Shown here: piece after piece, positions 24,712-33,250 of the stretch
Position numbering within the stretch: position 1 is the first letter of the stretch
Layout: each line of letters starts with the position of its first letter
From: Polystyrenella longa
Lineage (GTDB): Bacteria > Planctomycetota > Planctomycetia > Planctomycetales > Planctomycetaceae
Length of the DNA: 64,000 bases
NCBI RefSeq assembly: GCF_007750395.1
Contig: NZ_CP036281.1
Coordinates: forward strand, 3,309,001-3,373,000
Reading direction: 5' to 3'
Notes under the pieces: generated by a model
The model's input: the letters and a program-made list of their open reading frames with translations, nothing else
What the model was told of the DNA's origin: nothing
Databases searched by the model: none
Translations under genes and position numbers: made by a program

Positions 24712-26394
24712 CTAAAAATCAGCCTTCGGTTTTTCATCTTCTTTAGACTTTTTCTCTTTAGAACCTTTTCCTTTTTTACCTTTAGGACCTTTTTCTCCTT
24801 TAGGTCCACGAGGAGATTTGAACTCTTCTTTGGAAATAGTGCCGTCACTGTCTTTGTCCAGTTTGGCAAGTCGTTCCTTCATGCGTTCCGGAAGTTCGGC
24901 TTCGCTGAGTTTTCCGTCCTCGTCTTTATCCAGTCGTTTGAAGAAACCTTCCGCCCGGTCTTTCCCACTCATGCGGGGTCCGCGGCCTTCTGGTTTTTCC
25001 ATTTCTTTTCCTTGCTTACGACCATGCATTCCTTTACCGCCACGCATGCCTCTATGGTGCATTCCCATACGTCCTTCTCCGCGGTGATGTCCATCTCTCT
25101 TGCCCATTCGGCCTTGGCGACGTCCATGCTCGGATTTGTCGTGATCAATTTTGGGTTTGCCGATCAGCTCAGGAATACTGACCTGACCATCTTCATCTTT
25201 GTCGAGTTCAGCAAACATCTCAGCAGCTTTGGAAAGCTCTTCCTTGCTCAGTTTTTTATCTTCGTTGGTATCAAGCGTGTTTAAGAGTCCCCCTTCAAAT
25301 GTCGGAGGATGATGAGAGAAACGTCCAAAGTGCCCAGGTCCACGGCCCATTCCCGCGTAATGACCGCCACGATGTCCTCGACCGCTGAAGTGTCCGTATC
25401 CACGGCCCTGAGAATCTCGGTGTCCTCTGGCATATCGAGAACCATGTCCGCGATCTCCACGGCCCCAGTGTCCGCGACCACGATCACCCCGTTCTCCGTA
25501 TCCTCGATCACCATGGCCGCGTTCACCATGACCACGACGAGAATAGCGGTGATGCCCACGTTCGGAGCGATGATCTCCACGACCACGCATCCCATGCTTG
25601 CGATCGCCTTTACCTTCTCCTTTTTCCATACGTGCTTTCATATGGGCCTGCATCCGTTCTTTCATTTGTTCGAATGCCGCTTTGAGATCGTCAGCAGTAA
25701 CTTCCGTCTGCCCTTCTTTGAGCATCCGTTGCATACGCTCGGGAATCTCTTCACCCGTCAGTTTGCCATCTTCATCCTTGTCGTGATGTTTGATGATCTC
25801 TTCAGGTGCAGGAGGTTTCATACGACCGAATCCAGGACGACCTTTGCCCTCCGGTTTCATCGCTTTAACTCCCTCTTGTTTTCCTTTGCCTTTATTACCT
25901 TTTTTCCCTTCAGGCTTTCCCTGTCGGGCTTTCTTCCTGCCTTCTTCTTTAGCCTTTTTCTTTTCAGCTTTTTTATCGGTATTTTCTGCTTCCGCTTTGT
26001 TTGTGTCCGTTTTTTCAGCGGCTGGTTTGGCTTCTACAGGCTTGGCTTCTTCCGCCTTTGTTTCTTCTGGTTTTGCCTCTTCCGTTTTGGCTTCCTCAGG
26101 TTTGGCTTCCTCTGCGGCAGCTTCATCCTGATTTAATGCCAATACGAATTCGTCCTGGCTGAGCGAACCATTCTTGTCCGTATCACCACGCAACATGAGT
26201 TGAGTCAGGAAGCGTTCCTTCTCGGGGGCAACTTCATCCGAAGTCAGTTGACCATCCGCATTCCCGTCGAGGGATGCAAACAGTTCCGCGTCCTGTGCCG
26301 CTTTTGAATCGGCATCAGCGAATACGGACTGACCTCCCATTGTCAGCACCAGCAATCCCAAACCGAGCGTACCGGCCGTTTTTGTGAATTTCAT
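24712..26394 (-). CDS. Secreted multi-EF-hand protein, highly basic and His/Arg/Gly-rich
   Basis: About 560 residues from the ATG at 26394, which has AAGGAG 8 nt upstream. A signal peptide (MKFTKTAGTLGLGLLVLT, cut near VFA-DA) sends it out of the cytoplasm. EF-hand loops include DGNADGQLTSDE, DTDKNGSLSQDE, DKDEDGKLTGEE, DTNEDKKLSKEE, DKDEDGQVSIPE, DKDEDGKLSEAE and DKDSDGTISKEE, so about seven sites. Between them lie an E/A/K/P-rich linker, a K-rich block, and a long tract of Arg, Gly, His, Asp and Tyr (RGHGERGHGDRG type). The C-terminus is a GPKG/Lys tail. Calcium binding is well supported; the basic tract could bind nucleic acid, phosphate or anionic glycans. Function is not known. Confidence 0.85.
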   Translation of the reverse strand: MKFTKTAGTLGLGLLVLTMGGQSVFADADSKAAQDAELFASLDGNADGQLTSDEVAPEKERFLTQLMLRGDTDKNGSLSQDEFVLALNQDEAAAEEAKPEEAKTEEAKPEETKAEEAKPVEAKPAAEKTDTNKAEAENTDKKAEKKKAKEEGRKKARQGKPEGKKGNKGKGKQEGVKAMKPEGKGRPGFGRMKPPAPEEIIKHHDKDEDGKLTGEEIPERMQRMLKEGQTEVTADDLKAAFEQMKERMQAHMKARMEKGEGKGDRKHGMRGRGDHRSERGHHRYSRRGHGERGHGDRGYGERGDRGRGHWGRGDRGHGSRYARGHRDSQGRGYGHFSGRGHRGGHYAGMGRGPGHFGRFSHHPPTFEGGLLNTLDTNEDKKLSKEELSKAAEMFAELDKDEDGQVSIPELIGKPKIDHDKSEHGRRQGRMGKRDGHHRGEGRMGMHHRGMRGGKGMHGRKQGKEMEKPEGRGPRMSGKDRAEGFFKRLDKDEDGKLSEAELPERMKERLAKLDKDSDGTISKEEFKSPRGPKGEKGPKGKKGKGSKEKKSKEDEKPKADF

Positions 26395-26749
26395 CTTTGT
26401 ATCTCCTTTTGACCTTTCTGTTGATCGCAACAGAAAGCACACGGGGGTTATTCAATAGAAGTTGATCATTCCCTGGTCCTGACCGTTTCCATACTTGGAT
26501 CGATACCAATATCGAAAGGACCTTCCTCAGCCCAAACAAGCATTATTCAGCAGTTTCGAGATTGCTCGTTTGCGTGGGTGAACTAACTACTAAACCCAGC
26601 CGAGTAACGAAAGTAGCGGCCTGATTTTCAAAATATTATTTTGCCTGGCTCATAATTTTTTGGATCTAAAGGAGACAATTTCCTCCTCCCTCGTTTTTTG
26701 AACCGACACGCCAGACCAGAACATTTGACCACGCACTGTCTTAAGCGCA

Positions 26750-27117: not shown

Positions 27118-28503
27118 TTATCGTTCCTCTGGGATCGACGAACCATGGGGATCATCCTCGGGCTGGTCTAGTTCGCTCGCCAGCTTGCTTCTTGCCGCAG
27201 CATCCATGAAGTGCTCTGCTCGGTGGGCCGATTCGTGGTATTGATCTTCTGCAACGGCAAAGTGTCTCGCGACATAACTCTCCCACAGGCGATGTGACCG
27301 GACGAGCCTTCGCCCTACCACCCTGCCAGATTCAGTAAGCGCGTATTCGGTCTCAGCGGCGTTCAACCGAAGTTGCCCTTTCTTGAGCAAAGCTCTCAGG
27401 GAAAACCAGTTCACAATTCGATCTTCGTTAACGGCCAGTTGAAAGAGCCGGCTAACTTCTGCCGACGAGACATCAGTTTCCTCAAGTCGATATAGAATTC
27501 CCAATAAGTCTTCAGCATGAATTCGAATCGCCAGCCGCCATTGAGCAAGCCACTTTGAAATTAATCCATAACGCGGTGCCACGATCGTTACCAGACTGAA
27601 CAACAACAGACTCATTACGGCCATCATACCGGAGGTGCTTACCCCCTTCACTTCGGTATAACCAAGTGACTGGAACATCATGGGGACAACCGTGATGGCG
27701 GAGTAATGCCCCAACAACGCCGTCAGAAACGCAACGCCCAGACTAATAAAAATCATACGATGCAGTTGCGTTGTCATCAGATAGGCCGACGCGGACGGGG
27801 CGATCAACATCGCAACCACTAAAATACTTCCGACCGACTCGAACGCGACGATTAATGTCATCGCGGTGCTGCACATTAATCCGTAGTGAATCAACCGGGA
27901 TCGAAAACCAAGGACATCGGCCAGAGCCGGATCAAAGGTACTGATGGTCAGTTCTTTATAAAACAAAAACAATAGAATCAGGTTGAGACCCAACACCAAT
28001 CCGTTTTGTACGGCCGCCACAGGAATCGACGTATCACCCCACTGATCCCAGTAGGCCAATTCAACCACGCCATAAAGAACGCAACGAGTATCGATATGTA
28101 CGTTATCAGCGACACCACGCAGCAGTACCAATCCGAGGGCAAACAAAGAGGTATAGACCACACCCAGCGAGGTAGAGCTTTCCACGCGCCCCAATTTCTG
28201 GATCCACTCCGTCAGCAGAGAACAGAGTAAGCCGACGACCAGGGCGCCGACAAAATATAGCATGCGAGCCCCGCTGAGCAGAGTTTCGTTTGAAATTAAC
28301 CCTAGATGCTGAAACAGTTGAGCTGTCAGAAAAGCGCCGACCACTCCCAACAGAACGGCGTGACTTAACGCATCGCCCATCATGCTCTGTCGCCGCAGCA
28401 GGAGATAGTTCCCAGGCAGTGCGCACGACATTGAAGCCAGGGCGGCGATAATCACCGTCCAGGTATCGAGCATCTGCCAATCGGGAACAAGCTGTCCAAA
28501 CAT
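27118..28503 (-). CDS. Metal ABC transporter permease fused to DtxR-like domain (ytgD position)
   Basis: About 461 residues from the ATG at 28503 (GGAA 8 nt upstream; a GTG at 28521 is possible). Residues 10-300 form an ABC-3 family permease for Mn, Fe or Zn, with about eight or nine helices and the SMMGDALSHAVLLG motif that contacts the ATPase. Residues about 315-395 look like a winged helix. Residues 395-461 match the DtxR metal-binding domain: H404, E408, H423, H427, E430 and H431 fall at exactly the spacing of DtxR H79, E83, H98, C102, E105 and H106, with Cys replaced by His. A PHGSSIPEER tail recalls DtxR PHG-PIP. It may sense the imported metal or be cut to release a repressor, as reported for chlamydial YtgCR. 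Confidence 0.88.
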   Translation of the reverse strand: MFGQLVPDWQMLDTWTVIIAALASMSCALPGNYLLLRRQSMMGDALSHAVLLGVVGAFLTAQLFQHLGLISNETLLSGARMLYFVGALVVGLLCSLLTEWIQKLGRVESSTSLGVVYTSLFALGLVLLRGVADNVHIDTRCVLYGVVELAYWDQWGDTSIPVAAVQNGLVLGLNLILLFLFYKELTISTFDPALADVLGFRSRLIHYGLMCSTAMTLIVAFESVGSILVVAMLIAPSASAYLMTTQLHRMIFISLGVAFLTALLGHYSAITVVPMMFQSLGYTEVKGVSTSGMMAVMSLLLFSLVTIVAPRYGLISKWLAQWRLAIRIHAEDLLGILYRLEETDVSSAEVSRLFQLAVNEDRIVNWFSLRALLKKGQLRLNAAETEYALTESGRVVGRRLVRSHRLWESYVARHFAVAEDQYHESAHRAEHFMDAAARSKLASELDQPEDDPHGSSIPEER

Positions 28504-28580
28504 GTTCGGGGTTCCGTTCACTCCCAGTAAAGATATCTTTAATTGTTAAACGAACAAAAGCGGTGACGTCTTTGCACTCG

Positions 28581-30155
28581 TCATGTCGCTGACGCTTCTG
28601 GTCCTGCAGGAATCTGATGCGGACTCGGCATCGGAGGAAATTGTTCTGCTTGAGATTTCATGATCGCTTCCAGTTCTTCAATCATCTCCGGGCCGAGAGC
28701 ATGTTCAATCCGGTCCGCCGATCGATCTACCCGGCTTGTCGCAATGTCGGCATGTTTCATTAGATAGATTTCCCACAACCGATGGTTTCTGACCACTCGC
28801 GTCGCAAAATCGACCCCGCTACTTGTCAGTCGAAACTGATCTGTCCCATGAGCTTCTAACAGGTCTTCAGACCGAGCACTTTTCATCAGGCGATGCAATC
28901 GATGCTGCGACCATGACCTTTTTGCCAGCAGGTCCTCCAGCGAAACCAACTCGCTCAGATACGTATCTCGCTGTAGCCGGGCCTCGCCCTGTAACCTCTG
29001 TTCGATGATTTCATAAAAAGCGCGAATCAAGTCCTGCAATCCGATTTGAGTTTGAACCTTCCGTTCGACCAGAAGACGGCGCAGGACACCGCTCTCTTTC
29101 CCAAACATCAGGCTGAATAAAAAGACGAGCGTTCCGCAAAGGACAATAACGGCTCCAGCGGACAGGCGTGGAAACATCGAACTCAGCAGAATTCCCAGCA
29201 TCGAACTGAGCCCTCCCATGACTGCCGCCACGATCAGCATTTTGTTGATTTGATTCGTCCAGAACCGGGCCGCCGCGGGAGGGATAATCAACAGCGCGAC
29301 GACCAACAACATGCCGACACTCTGCATCCCGATCACACAAACGGAGACGACAAGCCCCATCAGTGCGAGGTCCAGTAAACCCACTGGCCATCCCCGGGCC
29401 GAAGTATATTCTTCGTCGAAACAAAGAATCGTCAGTTCCTTGCGTAAGAAAGTCGCTGTCACCAACAAGACGAGAGAAACGGCGCCAATCAGCCAGACAT
29501 CGGAAGCGAGCATCGATGCCGCTTTACCAAAAATAAACTGATCCAAACCGGCCGCATTTCCCTGAGGTATTTTCTGAATTGCCGTAAACAGAACGATCCC
29601 CAGCCCGAATAACCCACTGAGAATGATGGCCTGAGCAGCGTCTTCTTTGATACGGGGGATTCGACGAAACAACAAAGTCCCGACCACGCCTAGTGTTCCT
29701 GAAACAAATGCCCCTGCCAACAAACCGGGAACAGACTTCCCCGTCCCAGGGGAAATCGCTTCCATTATCAAAAAAGCGCACGCAATACCGGGAAGTGCGG
29801 AGTGTCCAATGACATCGCCTACGAGTGCGCGTTGACGTAACACCATGAATGTCCCGATGACTCCTGCGCAGATTCCCAACAGGACTGTTCCCAGCAAGAC
29901 GACGCGAGTGTTGTAATCTCGTAATGTAATAGTTCGTACTAACCTGTCCCCAAAACTCTGAGGTTTCCTGTCTAGAAACGACGGCACGAGGCTTTTCTGT
30001 GCAACGACTTGCTTTTCAAACGAGCTATCTGAAAGGCCATTTTTTTCCTGAGCCCCTGCCGAAGTCGTACCACTAATGATCGCCACTATGAGAAACAGAA
30101 TAGCGAGAAACCCGGTCTTATTTTCGAGCTGAGTGAATCGACGTCTGAAAGTCAT
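28581..30155 (-). CDS. Metal ABC transporter permease fused to DtxR-like domain (ytgC position)
   Basis: A 524-residue protein. It has an extra N-terminal signal-like helix (residues 16-35) and a spacer of about 50 residues before the ABC-3 permease core (about 70-355, motif ALVGDVIGHSALPG). Residues about 370-450 look like a winged helix. Residues 450-515 match the DtxR metal domain: H458, E462, D477, D481, E484 and H485 align by spacing with DtxR H79, E83, H98, C102, E105 and H106. Asp at the C102 position is closer to MntR (Glu there) than to DtxR. The start overlaps the ATPase gene by 4 bp (ATGA), so translation is coupled. The C-terminal tail is Pro-rich. Confidence 0.88.
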   Translation of the reverse strand: MTFRRRFTQLENKTGFLAILFLIVAIISGTTSAGAQEKNGLSDSSFEKQVVAQKSLVPSFLDRKPQSFGDRLVRTITLRDYNTRVVLLGTVLLGICAGVIGTFMVLRQRALVGDVIGHSALPGIACAFLIMEAISPGTGKSVPGLLAGAFVSGTLGVVGTLLFRRIPRIKEDAAQAIILSGLFGLGIVLFTAIQKIPQGNAAGLDQFIFGKAASMLASDVWLIGAVSLVLLVTATFLRKELTILCFDEEYTSARGWPVGLLDLALMGLVVSVCVIGMQSVGMLLVVALLIIPPAAARFWTNQINKMLIVAAVMGGLSSMLGILLSSMFPRLSAGAVIVLCGTLVFLFSLMFGKESGVLRRLLVERKVQTQIGLQDLIRAFYEIIEQRLQGEARLQRDTYLSELVSLEDLLAKRSWSQHRLHRLMKSARSEDLLEAHGTDQFRLTSSGVDFATRVVRNHRLWEIYLMKHADIATSRVDRSADRIEHALGPEMIEELEAIMKSQAEQFPPMPSPHQIPAGPEASAT

Positions 30156-30943
30156 TTCGGACGGTCTCCCGACAGATGCATTGTCTGTCCGAGTTGATCC
30201 AAGAGCGACAATTTGCCTCCAAAAGTCTTGCGAAGATTCTCTTCCGTGAAAACCTCCTGTACTGGTCCCGTAGCGACCAACCTCATGTTCAACAGAATGA
30301 TTTCGTCAAAATATTCGGGGATCGTCTGCAGGTCATGATGGACGACAATGGCTGTCTTCCCCTGGGAGCGGATTTCACGCAATAGATTTATGATGGCCCG
30401 CTCCGTCGCCGCATCGACACCCGCAAAGGGTTCGTCCATCAAGTAGAGATCCGCCTTCTGAGCCAGTGCCCGCGCTAGAAAGACACGCTGTTGCTGACCA
30501 CCAGAGAGCTGATTGATCTGTCGATCAGCATAGTCGGCCATACCGACGCGTTCCAGACTTTCGCGAGCCTGTTTCCGGAACTTACGAGTAACGGGACGGA
30601 ACCAACCAATTTTGTGATAAAGCCCCATTGCAGCGACCTGGAGCGCATTGATCGGAAAATCCCAGTCAACAGAATTCCTTTGCGGTACATAACTGACCCG
30701 CTCGCGCTGCTCGCGATACTCCTTGCCGAAGAATTGAACTTCTCCCGAAGCCCTGGGGATCAGTCCGAGCGCTGCTTTCAGCATGGTCGTTTTGCCGGAA
30801 CCATTCGGTCCCACGATTGCAATCAACTTACCAGGAGGAGCATCGTAGTCGATGTCCCACAAGACTGGCCGGCGATGGTACGCCACGGTCATATCGTGAA
30901 TGGAAAGAGGAGCCTGAGGCGAATGTCCTGTGCTGGTATTCAT
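30152..30943 (-). CDS. Metal ABC transporter ATP-binding protein (ytgB/mntB/znuC-like)
   Basis: About 263 residues from the ATG at 30943 (a TTG at 30964 is in frame). All ABC motifs are present: Walker A GPNGSGKTT, signature LSGGQQQRV, Walker B LYLMDEP, and the switch His in VHHDLQ. The Q-loop region VPQRNSVDWDFP is typical of Mn/Zn importers. It energises import through the two downstream permeases, the first of which it overlaps by 4 bp. The metal cannot be fixed from the ATPase alone. Confidence 0.93.
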   Translation of the reverse strand: MNTSTGHSPQAPLSIHDMTVAYHRRPVLWDIDYDAPPGKLIAIVGPNGSGKTTMLKAALGLIPRASGEVQFFGKEYREQRERVSYVPQRNSVDWDFPINALQVAAMGLYHKIGWFRPVTRKFRKQARESLERVGMADYADRQINQLSGGQQQRVFLARALAQKADLYLMDEPFAGVDAATERAIINLLREIRSQGKTAIVVHHDLQTIPEYFDEIILLNMRLVATGPVQEVFTEENLRKTFGGKLSLLDQLGQTMHLSGDRPK

Positions 30944-31145
30944 ACAGAATAATTCAACAATCAAAATGAGAATTCAAAACTCTAAATCTAACCAAAACAT
31001 GGTGAGTGACTTCCGCGGTGAGCTCGTGGCATCACTGCTGCCCTCCTCTAATGTACGACAGCAAACGCTCGTTTTTCAAGTTGCAGTATAGAGCATCCGA
31101 AGGGTCTCCATAAATCCACGGCGTTAGATCCTCCGGTATGAATCG

Positions 31146-32132
31146 CTAGTCCTGCTTGAGCTTTCCGTTCAATCCGCCTGCGGGAACTTTTCCTCCTAAT
31201 GCCTGAGAAATGATCGTCACATTGTGATCAATCATACCGATGTACGTGCCCTCATAGGTTCCCGTTTCTCCCATGGCGTCTGAATATAAACTGCCACCGA
31301 TCTCAACTGTCCATCCTCTGTTAGCTGCCCCTTCAATTAATGCGCGGATATTGTTCTGAGCAACGCTCGACTCGACGAAGATCGCCTTGATTTTACGTTC
31401 GACAATAAAATCGACCAGTTTATTAATGTCATCGACGCCGGCGGCGGACTCCGTCGTAATTCCCTGTACTCCCAGTACCGTCATACCATAAGCATCTCCA
31501 AAGTAGCCAAACGCATCGTGCGCGGTAACCAATACGCGTTGTTCTGCCGGAATCGATTCGATCGACGTCACTGCGTATTCCGCCAATGCATCCAGCTGCA
31601 GGGAGTAGGCGTCCCAATTATGCTGATAGACCTCGGCATGTTCCGGGTCGAGTTCTGTCATCTTCTCAACCACATATTGACCGGCTTCTTTCCACAGGCT
31701 TATGTTCATCCACACGTGTGGGTCGGGGTGACCCGCAAACTCGGGGGGCTCGCGTAATTTTTCGTGATCCACCTCCGCAGTAACGGCAAAGATGGGTTTC
31801 CCCTGACGATTGACTTGTTCGAAAATCTCCGCCATCCGTCCCTCCAGCATCAATCCAGAGTAAAAGACGATGTCTGCCTGGCTCAATTGAACGGCGTCTT
31901 CCCGCAAAGGTTGATGCAGATGCGGATCGACAGCCGGACCCATCAGTCCTACGACTTCAGCCCTATCCCCCACGATCTCTCGGACGATATCAGTCACCAT
32001 TCCGGTAGTGGTGACAATTTTGAGTTTGCCACTCGCTGAAAGGTTGTCCACATTTGAGGAACCATCGCAACCGGAGAACATCACAAAACACAACAACAAG
32101 TAAGTTAGAGCGAGAAACGTTGAGGATTTCAT
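31146..32132 (-). CDS. Metal ABC transporter substrate-binding lipoprotein (TroA/ZnuA/YtgA family)
   Basis: A 328-residue cluster A-I binding protein. The signal peptide ends in FSGCDG, a lipobox. Metal ligands expected in the family are visible: His in VDPHLHQP, His in DPHVWMN, His in TAHDAFGYF where Mn-specific PsaA has Glu, and Asp in LYSDAMG. This His-His-His-Asp set matches TroA/ZnuA and cyanobacterial MntC-like proteins more than PsaA. The loop after DPHVW has no His-rich stretch, which is against a purely zinc-type ZnuA. It heads the operon, with 202 bp before the ATPase gene. Confidence 0.9.
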   Translation of the reverse strand: MKSSTFLALTYLLLCFVMFSGCDGSSNVDNLSASGKLKIVTTTGMVTDIVREIVGDRAEVVGLMGPAVDPHLHQPLREDAVQLSQADIVFYSGLMLEGRMAEIFEQVNRQGKPIFAVTAEVDHEKLREPPEFAGHPDPHVWMNISLWKEAGQYVVEKMTELDPEHAEVYQHNWDAYSLQLDALAEYAVTSIESIPAEQRVLVTAHDAFGYFGDAYGMTVLGVQGITTESAAGVDDINKLVDFIVERKIKAIFVESSVAQNNIRALIEGAANRGWTVEIGGSLYSDAMGETGTYEGTYIGMIDHNVTIISQALGGKVPAGGLNGKLKQD

Positions 32133-32220
32133 AGAAATTCCATTATTCGATGAGGAAGCTACGCGAATTCAACAAAGTCACGACCGACAAAAAGCCGAAA
32201 CATTAGCTATTCAAAATTAT

Positions 32221-32256
32221 TTATTTTTGACTACCTAAAACAATAGTAAGTATAAC
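32221..32256 (+). promoter_or_regulatory. Sigma-70-like promoter overlapping a possible DtxR-type box
   Basis: TTGACT (32227-32232) and TATAAC (32251-32256) are separated by 18 bp, 58 bp before the plus-strand start at 32315. The minus strand of 32221-32238 reads TTAGGTAGTCAAAAATAA. It resembles the DtxR/IdeR consensus TTAGGTTAGCCTAACCTAA over its left half but is one base shorter and degenerate on the right. The site lies between the divergent metal operon and the beta-barrel gene, so one metal-sensing repressor could control both. The promoter is better supported than the operator. Confidence 0.4.
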
Positions 32257-32314: not shown

Positions 32315-33250
32315 ATGCTTATTACACGATCATTTGTACATATTTATTCCTTGCTGGCATTCTGTGGAATGCTTGCCTTCGACAATCTCCAACTGAAGGC
32401 TGACGAACGGTTTTATTACGGTGAAGCACTTGAGGGCGTCTCACGCTTATCCTTCGATAATTCTTCTTCTGGTAAGACGCTCTGGAACTGGGGCAACCCC
32501 ATCGAGCAGTACAATGGACTAGCGGAGCCACTGGTAACCGACCGCCCCGACTTTACAGAAGCCTCCTCGACCGTTGGTAAGGGGGTCACTCAACTCGAGT
32601 TCGGATACACCTACGGTTACAATAGCGATGGTGGAGAAAGTGGAAAGAGTCACACATTTGGTGAGCCACTTTTACGCCATGGATTGTATGCCGACTGGTT
32701 AGAATTAAGAGTCGGTCTTGCACCGATACAGGAATCAACCAGAAGCCAGGGAAACAAAACGACAACGTCGGGATTGGAAGACCTCTACCTTGGCTTCAAA
32801 GTCGCCCTCACCTCACAGGATCAATTCCTGCCGGAGATGGCTCTGATTCCGCAAATGACTGTCCCCACGGGTAGCGAAGCCTTTTCCGACGACCGGGTAT
32901 TGCCGGGTGCGAACTGGATCTATAGCTGGGAACTCACAGATACAATCAGTACTGCCGGAAGTACTCAGTTCAACATCGCGGTCGACGAAGAGACTGCATC
33001 AAGCTACACGGAATGGGCGCAATCCTGGACGGTCGCCACCAGCCTGAGCGATAAGACTGGTATGTATACGGAATGGTTTGCCTTCTTCCCGGACGATGCC
33101 GATACCGCACAGGTAGAGCACTACCTGAACGGCGGTTTCACCTATTTAGTCAATGACGACATCCAATTGGATGTCCGCGCGGGCACCGGCTTAAACGGAG
33201 CAGCGGAAGACTTCTTCACAGGTGTCGGTATGTCGATTCGATTTCCGTAA
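32315..33250 (+). CDS. Outer-membrane beta-barrel protein, MetA-pathway phenol degradation-like (PF13557)
   Basis: A 311-residue protein with a signal peptide (cut near residue 28). It has the DRPDFTEASSTVGKGVTQLEFGYTY motif of the Phenol_MetA_deg family, alternating amphipathic strands and an aromatic C-terminal strand ending in IRFP, as in outer-membrane barrels. Despite the family name, members are mostly uncharacterised barrels, and a link to phenols is not implied. It is divergent from the metal ABC operon with 182 bp between starts, so it could be a co-regulated porin. That link is inference. Confidence 0.75.
   Translation: MLITRSFVHIYSLLAFCGMLAFDNLQLKADERFYYGEALEGVSRLSFDNSSSGKTLWNWGNPIEQYNGLAEPLVTDRPDFTEASSTVGKGVTQLEFGYTYGYNSDGGESGKSHTFGEPLLRHGLYADWLELRVGLAPIQESTRSQGNKTTTSGLEDLYLGFKVALTSQDQFLPEMALIPQMTVPTGSEAFSDDRVLPGANWIYSWELTDTISTAGSTQFNIAVDEETASSYTEWAQSWTVATSLSDKTGMYTEWFAFFPDDADTAQVEHYLNGGFTYLVNDDIQLDVRAGTGLNGAAEDFFTGVGMSIRFP

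Follow-up and report, generated by a model that had tools for sequence, protein, structure and literature searches.

In Chlamydia trachomatis, the ytgABCD operon encodes a binding protein, an ATPase, and two permeases. One of the permeases, YtgCR, ends in a DtxR-type domain that is reportedly cleaved off and then acts as a repressor (PMC5599777, PMC6504234, PMC7755916). A review reports fusions between permeases and DtxR domains in 11 phyla. So far, these fusions have been interpreted by way of the chlamydial case, as a means of releasing a repressor. Here we describe a 64,000-nucleotide stretch of the genome of Polystyrenella longa (the window), whose minus strand carries an operon (27118-32132) that encodes a binding protein, an ATP-binding cassette (ABC) ATPase, permease 1 (P1), and permease 2 (P2), in this order. 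Both permeases end in a DtxR-like domain. We propose that the permeases of this importer carry paired cytosolic sensors of the DtxR/MntR type that gate transport and no longer read DNA, and we give this proposal somewhat better than even chances. We favour a gating sensor dimer over a released repressor. The genes of the operon are:

31146-32132, minus strand: periplasmic metal-binding protein of the ZnuA/TroA family (Pfam PF01297, 250.8 bits; nearest solved protein TroA, 250 bits)
30152-30964, minus strand: ABC ATPase of the importer, without an extra sensor domain (PF00005, ABC_tran, 106 bits)
28581-30155, minus strand: P1, an ABC-3 permease with a C-terminal DtxR-type domain, 524 amino acids (PF00950, 208.2 bits; PF02742)
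27118-28521, minus strand: P2, an ABC-3 permease with a C-terminal DtxR-type domain, 467 amino acids from a GTG start (PF00950, 136 bits; PF02742)

Gene calls and Pfam confirm the ytgABCD-like order that a first-pass annotation had read from the DNA. A PF01297 protein with an ABC ATPase and ABC-3 permeases is the gene content of a metal ABC importer of the ZnuA/TroA type. The manganese permease PsaC is the nearest solved relative of the profiles of both P1 and P2, and both matches stop just short of the extra C-terminal domain. Asp46 and His50 of PsaC reportedly coordinate manganese (PMC11779740). At these positions, P1 has Asp114 and His118, which are invariant in 12/12 P1 sequences, and P2 has Asp50 and His54 (in GTG numbering), which are invariant in 13/13 P2 sequences. 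H71, H139, H205, and D285 of the binding protein align with the ligand positions of TroA, which we take to be its metal ligands. The alignment gives a TroA-type H-H-H-D set and rules out a PsaA-type H-H-E-D site, so the binding protein does not settle the identity of the metal. From these sequence similarities, the operon probably encodes a manganese(II)- or iron(II)-type ABC importer.

PF02742 (Fe_dep_repr_C) matches residues 444-500 of P1 (50.6 bits, E = 1.9e-13) and residues 396-465 of P2 (66.9 bits, E = 1.6e-18). At the sequence level, these matches are far above chance. Each permease combines the ABC-3 permease and PF02742 in a single protein, which is the makeup of a YtgCR-type fusion. 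In AlphaFold models, the P2 domain has a predicted local distance difference test score (pLDDT) of 91. The P1 domain (pLDDT of 83, with the last 50 residues weaker) is modeled as a winged helix followed by dimer-type helices. In Foldseek searches, the 50 top rows for each domain were all DtxR-family repressors. The best match to the P2 domain was DR2539 (E = 8e-8, with 70 matches at E ≤ 0.001), and the P1 domain matched ScaR, IdeR, and MntR near E = 1e-3 (2 matches at E ≤ 0.001). Both C-terminal domains are predicted to adopt a DtxR-like winged-helix fold; a prediction that lacked one had been named in the first pass as a refutation. The sensor domains and their junctions to the membrane part are:

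28581-29039, minus strand: P1 sensor domain, residues 373-524, with D375, H458, E462, D477, D481, E484, and H485 (from AlphaFold, Foldseek, and conservation)
27118-27576, minus strand: P2 sensor domain, residues 316-467, with D338, H410, E414, H429, (H433), E436, and H437, and a DPHG...IP tail (from AlphaFold, Foldseek, and conservation)
29031-29090, minus strand: P1 junction, Gly356 to Asp375, 19 residues (G356 is invariant in 12 P1 sequences; spacing counts)
27508-27567, minus strand: P2 junction, Gly319 to Asp338, 19 residues (spacing counts; one helix with sensor helix 1 in the model)

The first-pass annotation had proposed six metal ligands in each domain. Those of P1, from H458 to H485, are exactly where it placed them and keep the spacing of DtxR. 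For P2, the set of ligands and their spacing stand, and the numbering does not: its count began at an internal ATG six codons later, and six must be added to each number. To see how well these positions are conserved, we aligned 48 soluble, 82 P1, and 92 P2 sequences, after reduction at 85% identity (88/95 P1-type, 100/100 P2-type, and 59/73 soluble-type frames entered). The soluble set includes three fragments of fused genes (L002, L120, and L082), which were excluded from the scan for PF01325 and from the tree (see below). Only rows with an anchor of the form H-[RE]-x-x-[EQ] or similar were used, so the selection itself accounts for part of the high conservation of the first His and of the Glu at +4; it did not involve the E-H pair farther downstream or the remaining ligand positions.

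Ligand positions that vary freely among homologs had been named as a possible refutation, and the alignment shows otherwise: the four core positions H, E, E, and H are 98-100% conserved in each of the soluble, P1, and P2 groups. The mean information in the ligand columns (in 12-row samples) is 3.76 bits for the soluble proteins, and 3.91 and 3.83 bits for the P1 and P2 domains of double fusions. Of the features of a DtxR/MntR metalloregulator, both P1 and P2 have the PF02742 metal-binding and dimerisation domain with its ligands. The Trp of HRLWE is typical of the fused domains (98-100%, versus 17% in the soluble set). There is also another candidate ligand, absent from the first-pass annotation: an Asp on sensor helix 1 (D375 of P1 and D338 of P2), at what we take to be the position of DtxR Met10 and MntR Asp8. 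This position is D in 94% of the 92 P2 sequences, and H (49%), N (26%), or D (22%) in the 82 P1 sequences.

The P1 and P2 sites had also been contrasted as Asp-rich and His-rich. Asp is indeed typical of P1, both at the position of DtxR His98 (D in 71% of P1, versus H in 98% of P2) and at the position of Cys102 (D in 72%). At the latter position, His433 of P2 is not conserved (E in 58%, H in 21%, M in 7%, and S in 5% of P2). The suggestion that the two sensors bind different metals is weak, because one of the ligands underlying it is variable, and we consider it unsupported.

Whereas the metal-binding half has been kept in both sensor domains, comparison of the sequences indicates that the DNA-reading half has decayed. 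The DNA-binding model PF01325 was found in 0/50 P2 domains and 0/46 P1 domains, versus 42/45 non-permease DtxR proteins (Pfam, E of 0.01; the 45 still include one ATPase fusion, L072). It is absent from both permeases of the window in the Pfam scan. The three non-permease proteins that lack PF01325 are the ATPase fusion and two FeoA-bearing proteins (from L071 and L029:1821-3008), and the tree places all three on the fused side. Soluble proteins share a clear consensus in the recognition helix, and the equivalent columns are nearly free in P2 (mean information, in 12-row samples, of 2.68 bits for soluble proteins, 2.12 for P1, and 1.75 for P2 of double fusions). Since the P2-domain profile still aligns with DtxR proteins across the helix-turn-helix (HTH) region, the loss is the decay of a true winged helix. 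P1 domains, such as window 28581-29039, replace the recognition-helix consensus of soluble DtxR with a conserved R-x-W motif, which is possibly a docking surface. Because the metal ligands are nearly invariant but PF01325 is missing, our interpretation shifts, with moderate confidence, from a repressor to a valve.

The other way to view these domains follows YtgR: one or both would repress their own operon in a metal-dependent way, either after proteolytic release or while still attached to the permease, and might do so as a P1/P2 heterodimer that reads a divergent operator. The first-pass annotation drew the comparison with YtgCR, and the fusion and the gene order do match those of chlamydial ytgABCD. 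A repressor is hard to reconcile with the universal loss of PF01325 among the scanned fused domains, or with a P2 recognition segment that is unconserved and variable in length. Given this and the evidence below, we consider a YtgR-like repressor to be unlikely.

The junction between the membrane part and the sensor has a fixed length. Counted from a conserved Gly where the membrane part ends, the helix-1 position is 19 residues away in 149/150 rows (by alignment column) and in 170/171 full-length proteins (3 further rows could not be placed). This spacing is common to P1, P2, and every architecture. For comparison, the HTH lies between helix 1 and the first His, and this stretch is 58-93 residues long in the fused set and 65-83 in the soluble set. 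In the model of P2, the junction and sensor helix 1 form one unbroken helix of 30 residues (domain residues 4-33); the model of P1 was built without the junction. A junction of fixed length, helical in the model of P2, argues against a loose cleavable linker and hence against the YtgR-like reading. In the plain manganese importer MntBC, the C-terminal helix was reportedly modeled as protruding deep into the cytosol, and the importer lost its activity, though not its membrane expression, when this helix was truncated (PMC8487065). Given the end-on junction, this implies that the sensor is attached to a part of the permease that is important for transport. The fixed junction and the single helix across it in P2 support a valve on an ABC importer.

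We infer the following mechanism, including the P1-P2 domain dimer, the identity of the metal, the gating, and its direction. In each permease, a DtxR/MntR-type sensor domain would be attached, end to end, to the cytosolic side of the C-terminal membrane helix, and the P1 and P2 domains would pair inside one transporter. When the cytosol is replete with metal, the paired sensors would bind the imported metal. This would shift sensor helix 1 and, through the unbroken helix that leads from it into the membrane, also the C-terminal membrane helix, so that import would be slowed or stopped (trans-inhibition).

Conserved cytosolic ligands that directly follow the membrane part could also be explained if the domains were metal acceptors, that is, buffers or chaperone-like sinks that draw the ion from the translocation path without gating. 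The conserved geometry of helix 1, the DtxR dimer fold, and a junction of fixed length would all be unnecessary for a sink, and we think this explanation very improbable.

Domains of this kind are widespread in the relatives of P. longa. Of 294 genomes sampled from the phylum, 161 have PF02742 matches. Among 150 genomes drawn from the family, at least 133 have the P2-type sensor, at least 106 have the P1-type, and at least 103 have both, counting the domain-profile matches that stand clearly above the soluble background (cut-offs of 118 and 110 bits, set after viewing the scores). These are lower bounds because divergent members, such as P1 of L035, score below the cut-off. Two genomes of the same genus in the family draw, which are incomplete (78% and 65%), have low-scoring matches at the level of soluble proteins only.

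We also classified 80 named loci, which are the best 80 of at least 580 stretches that bear the signature of a fused domain. By score thresholds that we set, 54 of the 80 have the double fusion, 4 are P1-only, 5 are P2-only, 4 have a single fused permease with a binding protein or ATPase, 12 have a fused permease without importer neighbors in the stretch, and 1 has no recognised fused frame. Of the double-fusion loci, 40/54 are labelled Planctomycetota, so the search across Planctomycetes proposed in the first pass did find the double fusion there. Other double-fusion loci are labelled Verrucomicrobiota, Kiritimatiellota, or Lentisphaerota, and there are metagenome bins, with unreliable assignments, from Thermodesulfobacteriota, Acidobacteriota, Bdellovibrionota, and Pseudomonadota. 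In the P2-only loci L090, L112, and L127, Pfam did not find PF02742 in P1 (which has 455 amino acids in L090).

In some one-contig genomes (G024, G105, and G411), the genes for P1 and P2 are megabases apart and the domain is kept on both permeases, which supports a function within the transporter. So does locus L072, where a frame of 855 amino acids (L072:2559-5126, plus strand) contains PF00005 (residues 493-638) and PF02742 (residues 759-825) without PF01325. Judging by these matches, this DtxR-type sensor is on the ATPase rather than the permease. A lone DtxR-fused permease of some 500 amino acids or more is encoded by the importer operons of L044, L045, L060, L061, L063, L064, L065, L069, L142, and L151. 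Eight of these were in the tree (L045 and L069 were left out) and form a separate group, with support of 98 in the Shimodaira-Hasegawa-like approximate likelihood ratio test (SH-aLRT). They are presumably homodimeric transporters with two identical sensors. We also observed sensor-fused P2 proteins without a partner in the stretch examined, at L080:6044-7453 and in L085, L086, L088, L091, L095, and L103. In L080, the gene just upstream of the fused P2 resembles dapB by eye.

To examine the descent of the domains, we used a tree of 127 of 218 rows and 86 columns, with a midpoint root and with 69 of 124 inner branches left open. The 82 fused-permease rows group together (along with 4/45 non-permease rows), apart from the rest, with SH-aLRT of 98. 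The domains of double fusions fall into two separate groups, with 25/26 P1 domains in one and 26/26 P2 domains in the other (SH-aLRT of 93 and 92, which are below the tool's star level). There are 18 label changes on the tree, versus 72 in shuffles. The simplest reading of the alignment, which has few columns, is a single old fusion that then spread to the second permease.

The separation of most P1 and P2 domains on the tree would also be expected if the domains were modules for assembly or stability that pair P1 with P2, with a structural metal site. DtxR-family domains do dimerise, and the domains are retained where the two genes are unlinked. Full conservation of sensor-type ligands is not what such a module predicts, nor is the existence of P1-only and P2-only operons. 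We judge it to be quite improbable.

If the fused domains do not repress the operon, another protein may do so. PF02742 matches three proteins in the genome of the window (6.1 Mb in a single contig): P1, P2, and one soluble DtxR, which has PF01325 and FeoA domains and is encoded about 2.6 Mb from the operon. Upstream of the operon there is one weak operator candidate:

32203-32238, no strand: imperfect inverted repeat with 17-nt arms (82%)

This candidate is not secure, as 18/300 shuffles gave an equally good palindrome by our scoring. Relatives have a palindrome upstream of the gene for the binding protein, and its best form is AAATGTAGCC-NN-GGCTACATTT. TAGC-N4-GCTA occurs 22 times in 20/85 upstream segments, where the remaining sequence of these loci would predict 0.23 occurrences (the segments are not all independent, as L059 and L092 probably come from one contig). 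None of the 85 segments has the TAGC/GCTA palindrome with a spacing of 3, 5, or 6. This core equals that of the E. coli MntR box. If five flanking bases are required, 19 segments have the box (L036-L042, L060, L094, L106, L126, L127, L130, L131, L133, L135, L137, L139, and L142), and these were taken to the genome comparison.

A strong match to a soluble short MntR was found in 17/19 genomes with the box, versus 10/39 without it (p = 4e-6, or p = 1.5e-5 with one genus collapsed), where the 39 were hand-picked, so that the 58 genomes are not a random sample, the 170-bit line was set after the gap was seen, and the MntR model was built partly from box loci L133, L135, and L139 and from box-less L105. 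Of the two exceptions with the box, G216 has a 56-amino-acid fragment and G057 has a weaker relative. Two box-less genomes with MntR (L033 and L034) carry a box with one mismatch. Also, in 15/75 double-fusion loci and 7/10 P1-only loci, the operon has a soluble DtxR gene no more than 600 bp away, and all nine of the adjacent soluble DtxR proteins that we scanned contain both PF01325 and PF02742.

That the operator tracks soluble MntR, and that soluble DtxR genes often adjoin the operon, makes it plausible from these genomic patterns that a free regulator represses the operon in many relatives while the fused sensors persist. This supports a valve, and it tells against the YtgR-like repressor.

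Other upstream candidates did not hold up. For the DtxR-box consensus, the best match in the 85 segments was 14/19, and the window's 12/19 was no better than 24/50 shuffles. The window, L084, and L109 each have one TCAAAA/TTTTGA palindrome, with a spacing that differs among them. The importer shares its upstream region with a divergent gene (32315-33250, plus strand; PF13557), which is outer-membrane-barrel-like. As a partner of the importer it was rejected: among the loci examined, only L104 and L075 have homologs close to the operon. A further homolog is in the soluble-DtxR locus L011. Downstream of the operon lies a low-complexity open reading frame of 576 amino acids (24712-26442, minus strand). 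By eye, it has a high content of His, Gly, Lys, and Asp, and EF-hand-like D-x-D-x-D-G motifs recur in it.

Several observations weigh against a valve that no longer reads DNA, and the first four of them favor a YtgR-like repressor. Chlamydial YtgR is reportedly released and acts as a repressor (PMC5599777). The winged-helix fold is retained in the predicted structures of both domains. The R-x-W motif of P1 is conserved at the place of the recognition helix and could, from its sequence, read some DNA site. The HTH segment is basic, with a mean net charge of +3.6 in P1 and +3.3 in P2, versus +0.5 in soluble proteins (the window's own two domains have 0 and +3); this could reflect contact with DNA, or with lipid or another subunit. 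The weak inverted repeat upstream of the operon also fits a repressor. The P1-only, P2-only, and single-permease forms show that a transporter need not have two different domains. Finally, the genome of the window has neither an MntR box upstream of the operon nor a short MntR, so here the operator argument holds by analogy only.

Whether the domains bind DNA or gate transport had been left undecided in the first pass, and the evidence leans to gating. A released DNA-binding repressor does not seem to be the right model for these permeases. Tentatively, and with slightly less than even confidence, we go further: P1 and P2 would form a pseudo-symmetric heterodimer without sequence-specific DNA reading, a built-in valve that acts on the membrane gate through a continuous rigid helix, and DNA binding by YtgR would be a special case in a large family of valves. 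If gating is correct, then direct substrate feedback on manganese or iron ABC importers is widespread. It would also reveal a route from a transcription factor to a transporter valve, with intermediates still alive (P1-only, P2-only, single-permease, and ATPase-fused forms). We found no published mention of the double fusion or of a gating role, in a literature that was mostly without subscription papers. The permease-DtxR fusion as such was already known.

How does this importer compare to known systems? The gene order is that of chlamydial ytgABCD, and P1, like YtgCR, has a C-terminal DtxR-type domain. In contrast to the published descriptions of the chlamydial system, permease 2 is fused as well, and PF01325 is absent from the scanned domains of the window's type. 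The P1 and P2 domains share their predicted fold and the positions of the metal ligands with soluble DtxR, MntR, IdeR, ScaR, SloR, and DR2539, and P2 also shares the DPHG...IP tail. Unlike these regulators, they are fused to a permease, they lack the FeoA/SH3 domain, and their DNA-reading half has decayed. Among importers, the permeases are closest to PsaC of the PsaBC/MntBC type, with the same Asp and His in the path, and the binding protein is closest to TroA. PsaC and MntC are homodimers without a sensor domain, whereas the window encodes two different permeases with one sensor each. For MetNI and ModABC, it is established that substrate-sensing domains fused to the ATPase trans-inhibit import (PMC10710835). 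The likeness would be one of principle: the cycle is blocked by a fused domain that dimerises and senses the substrate in the cytosol. Those regulatory domains are on the ATPase and have other folds, whereas in the window they are on the permeases and the ATPase has none. By analogy, the importer of the window may work like MetNI and ModABC without being a member of that class.

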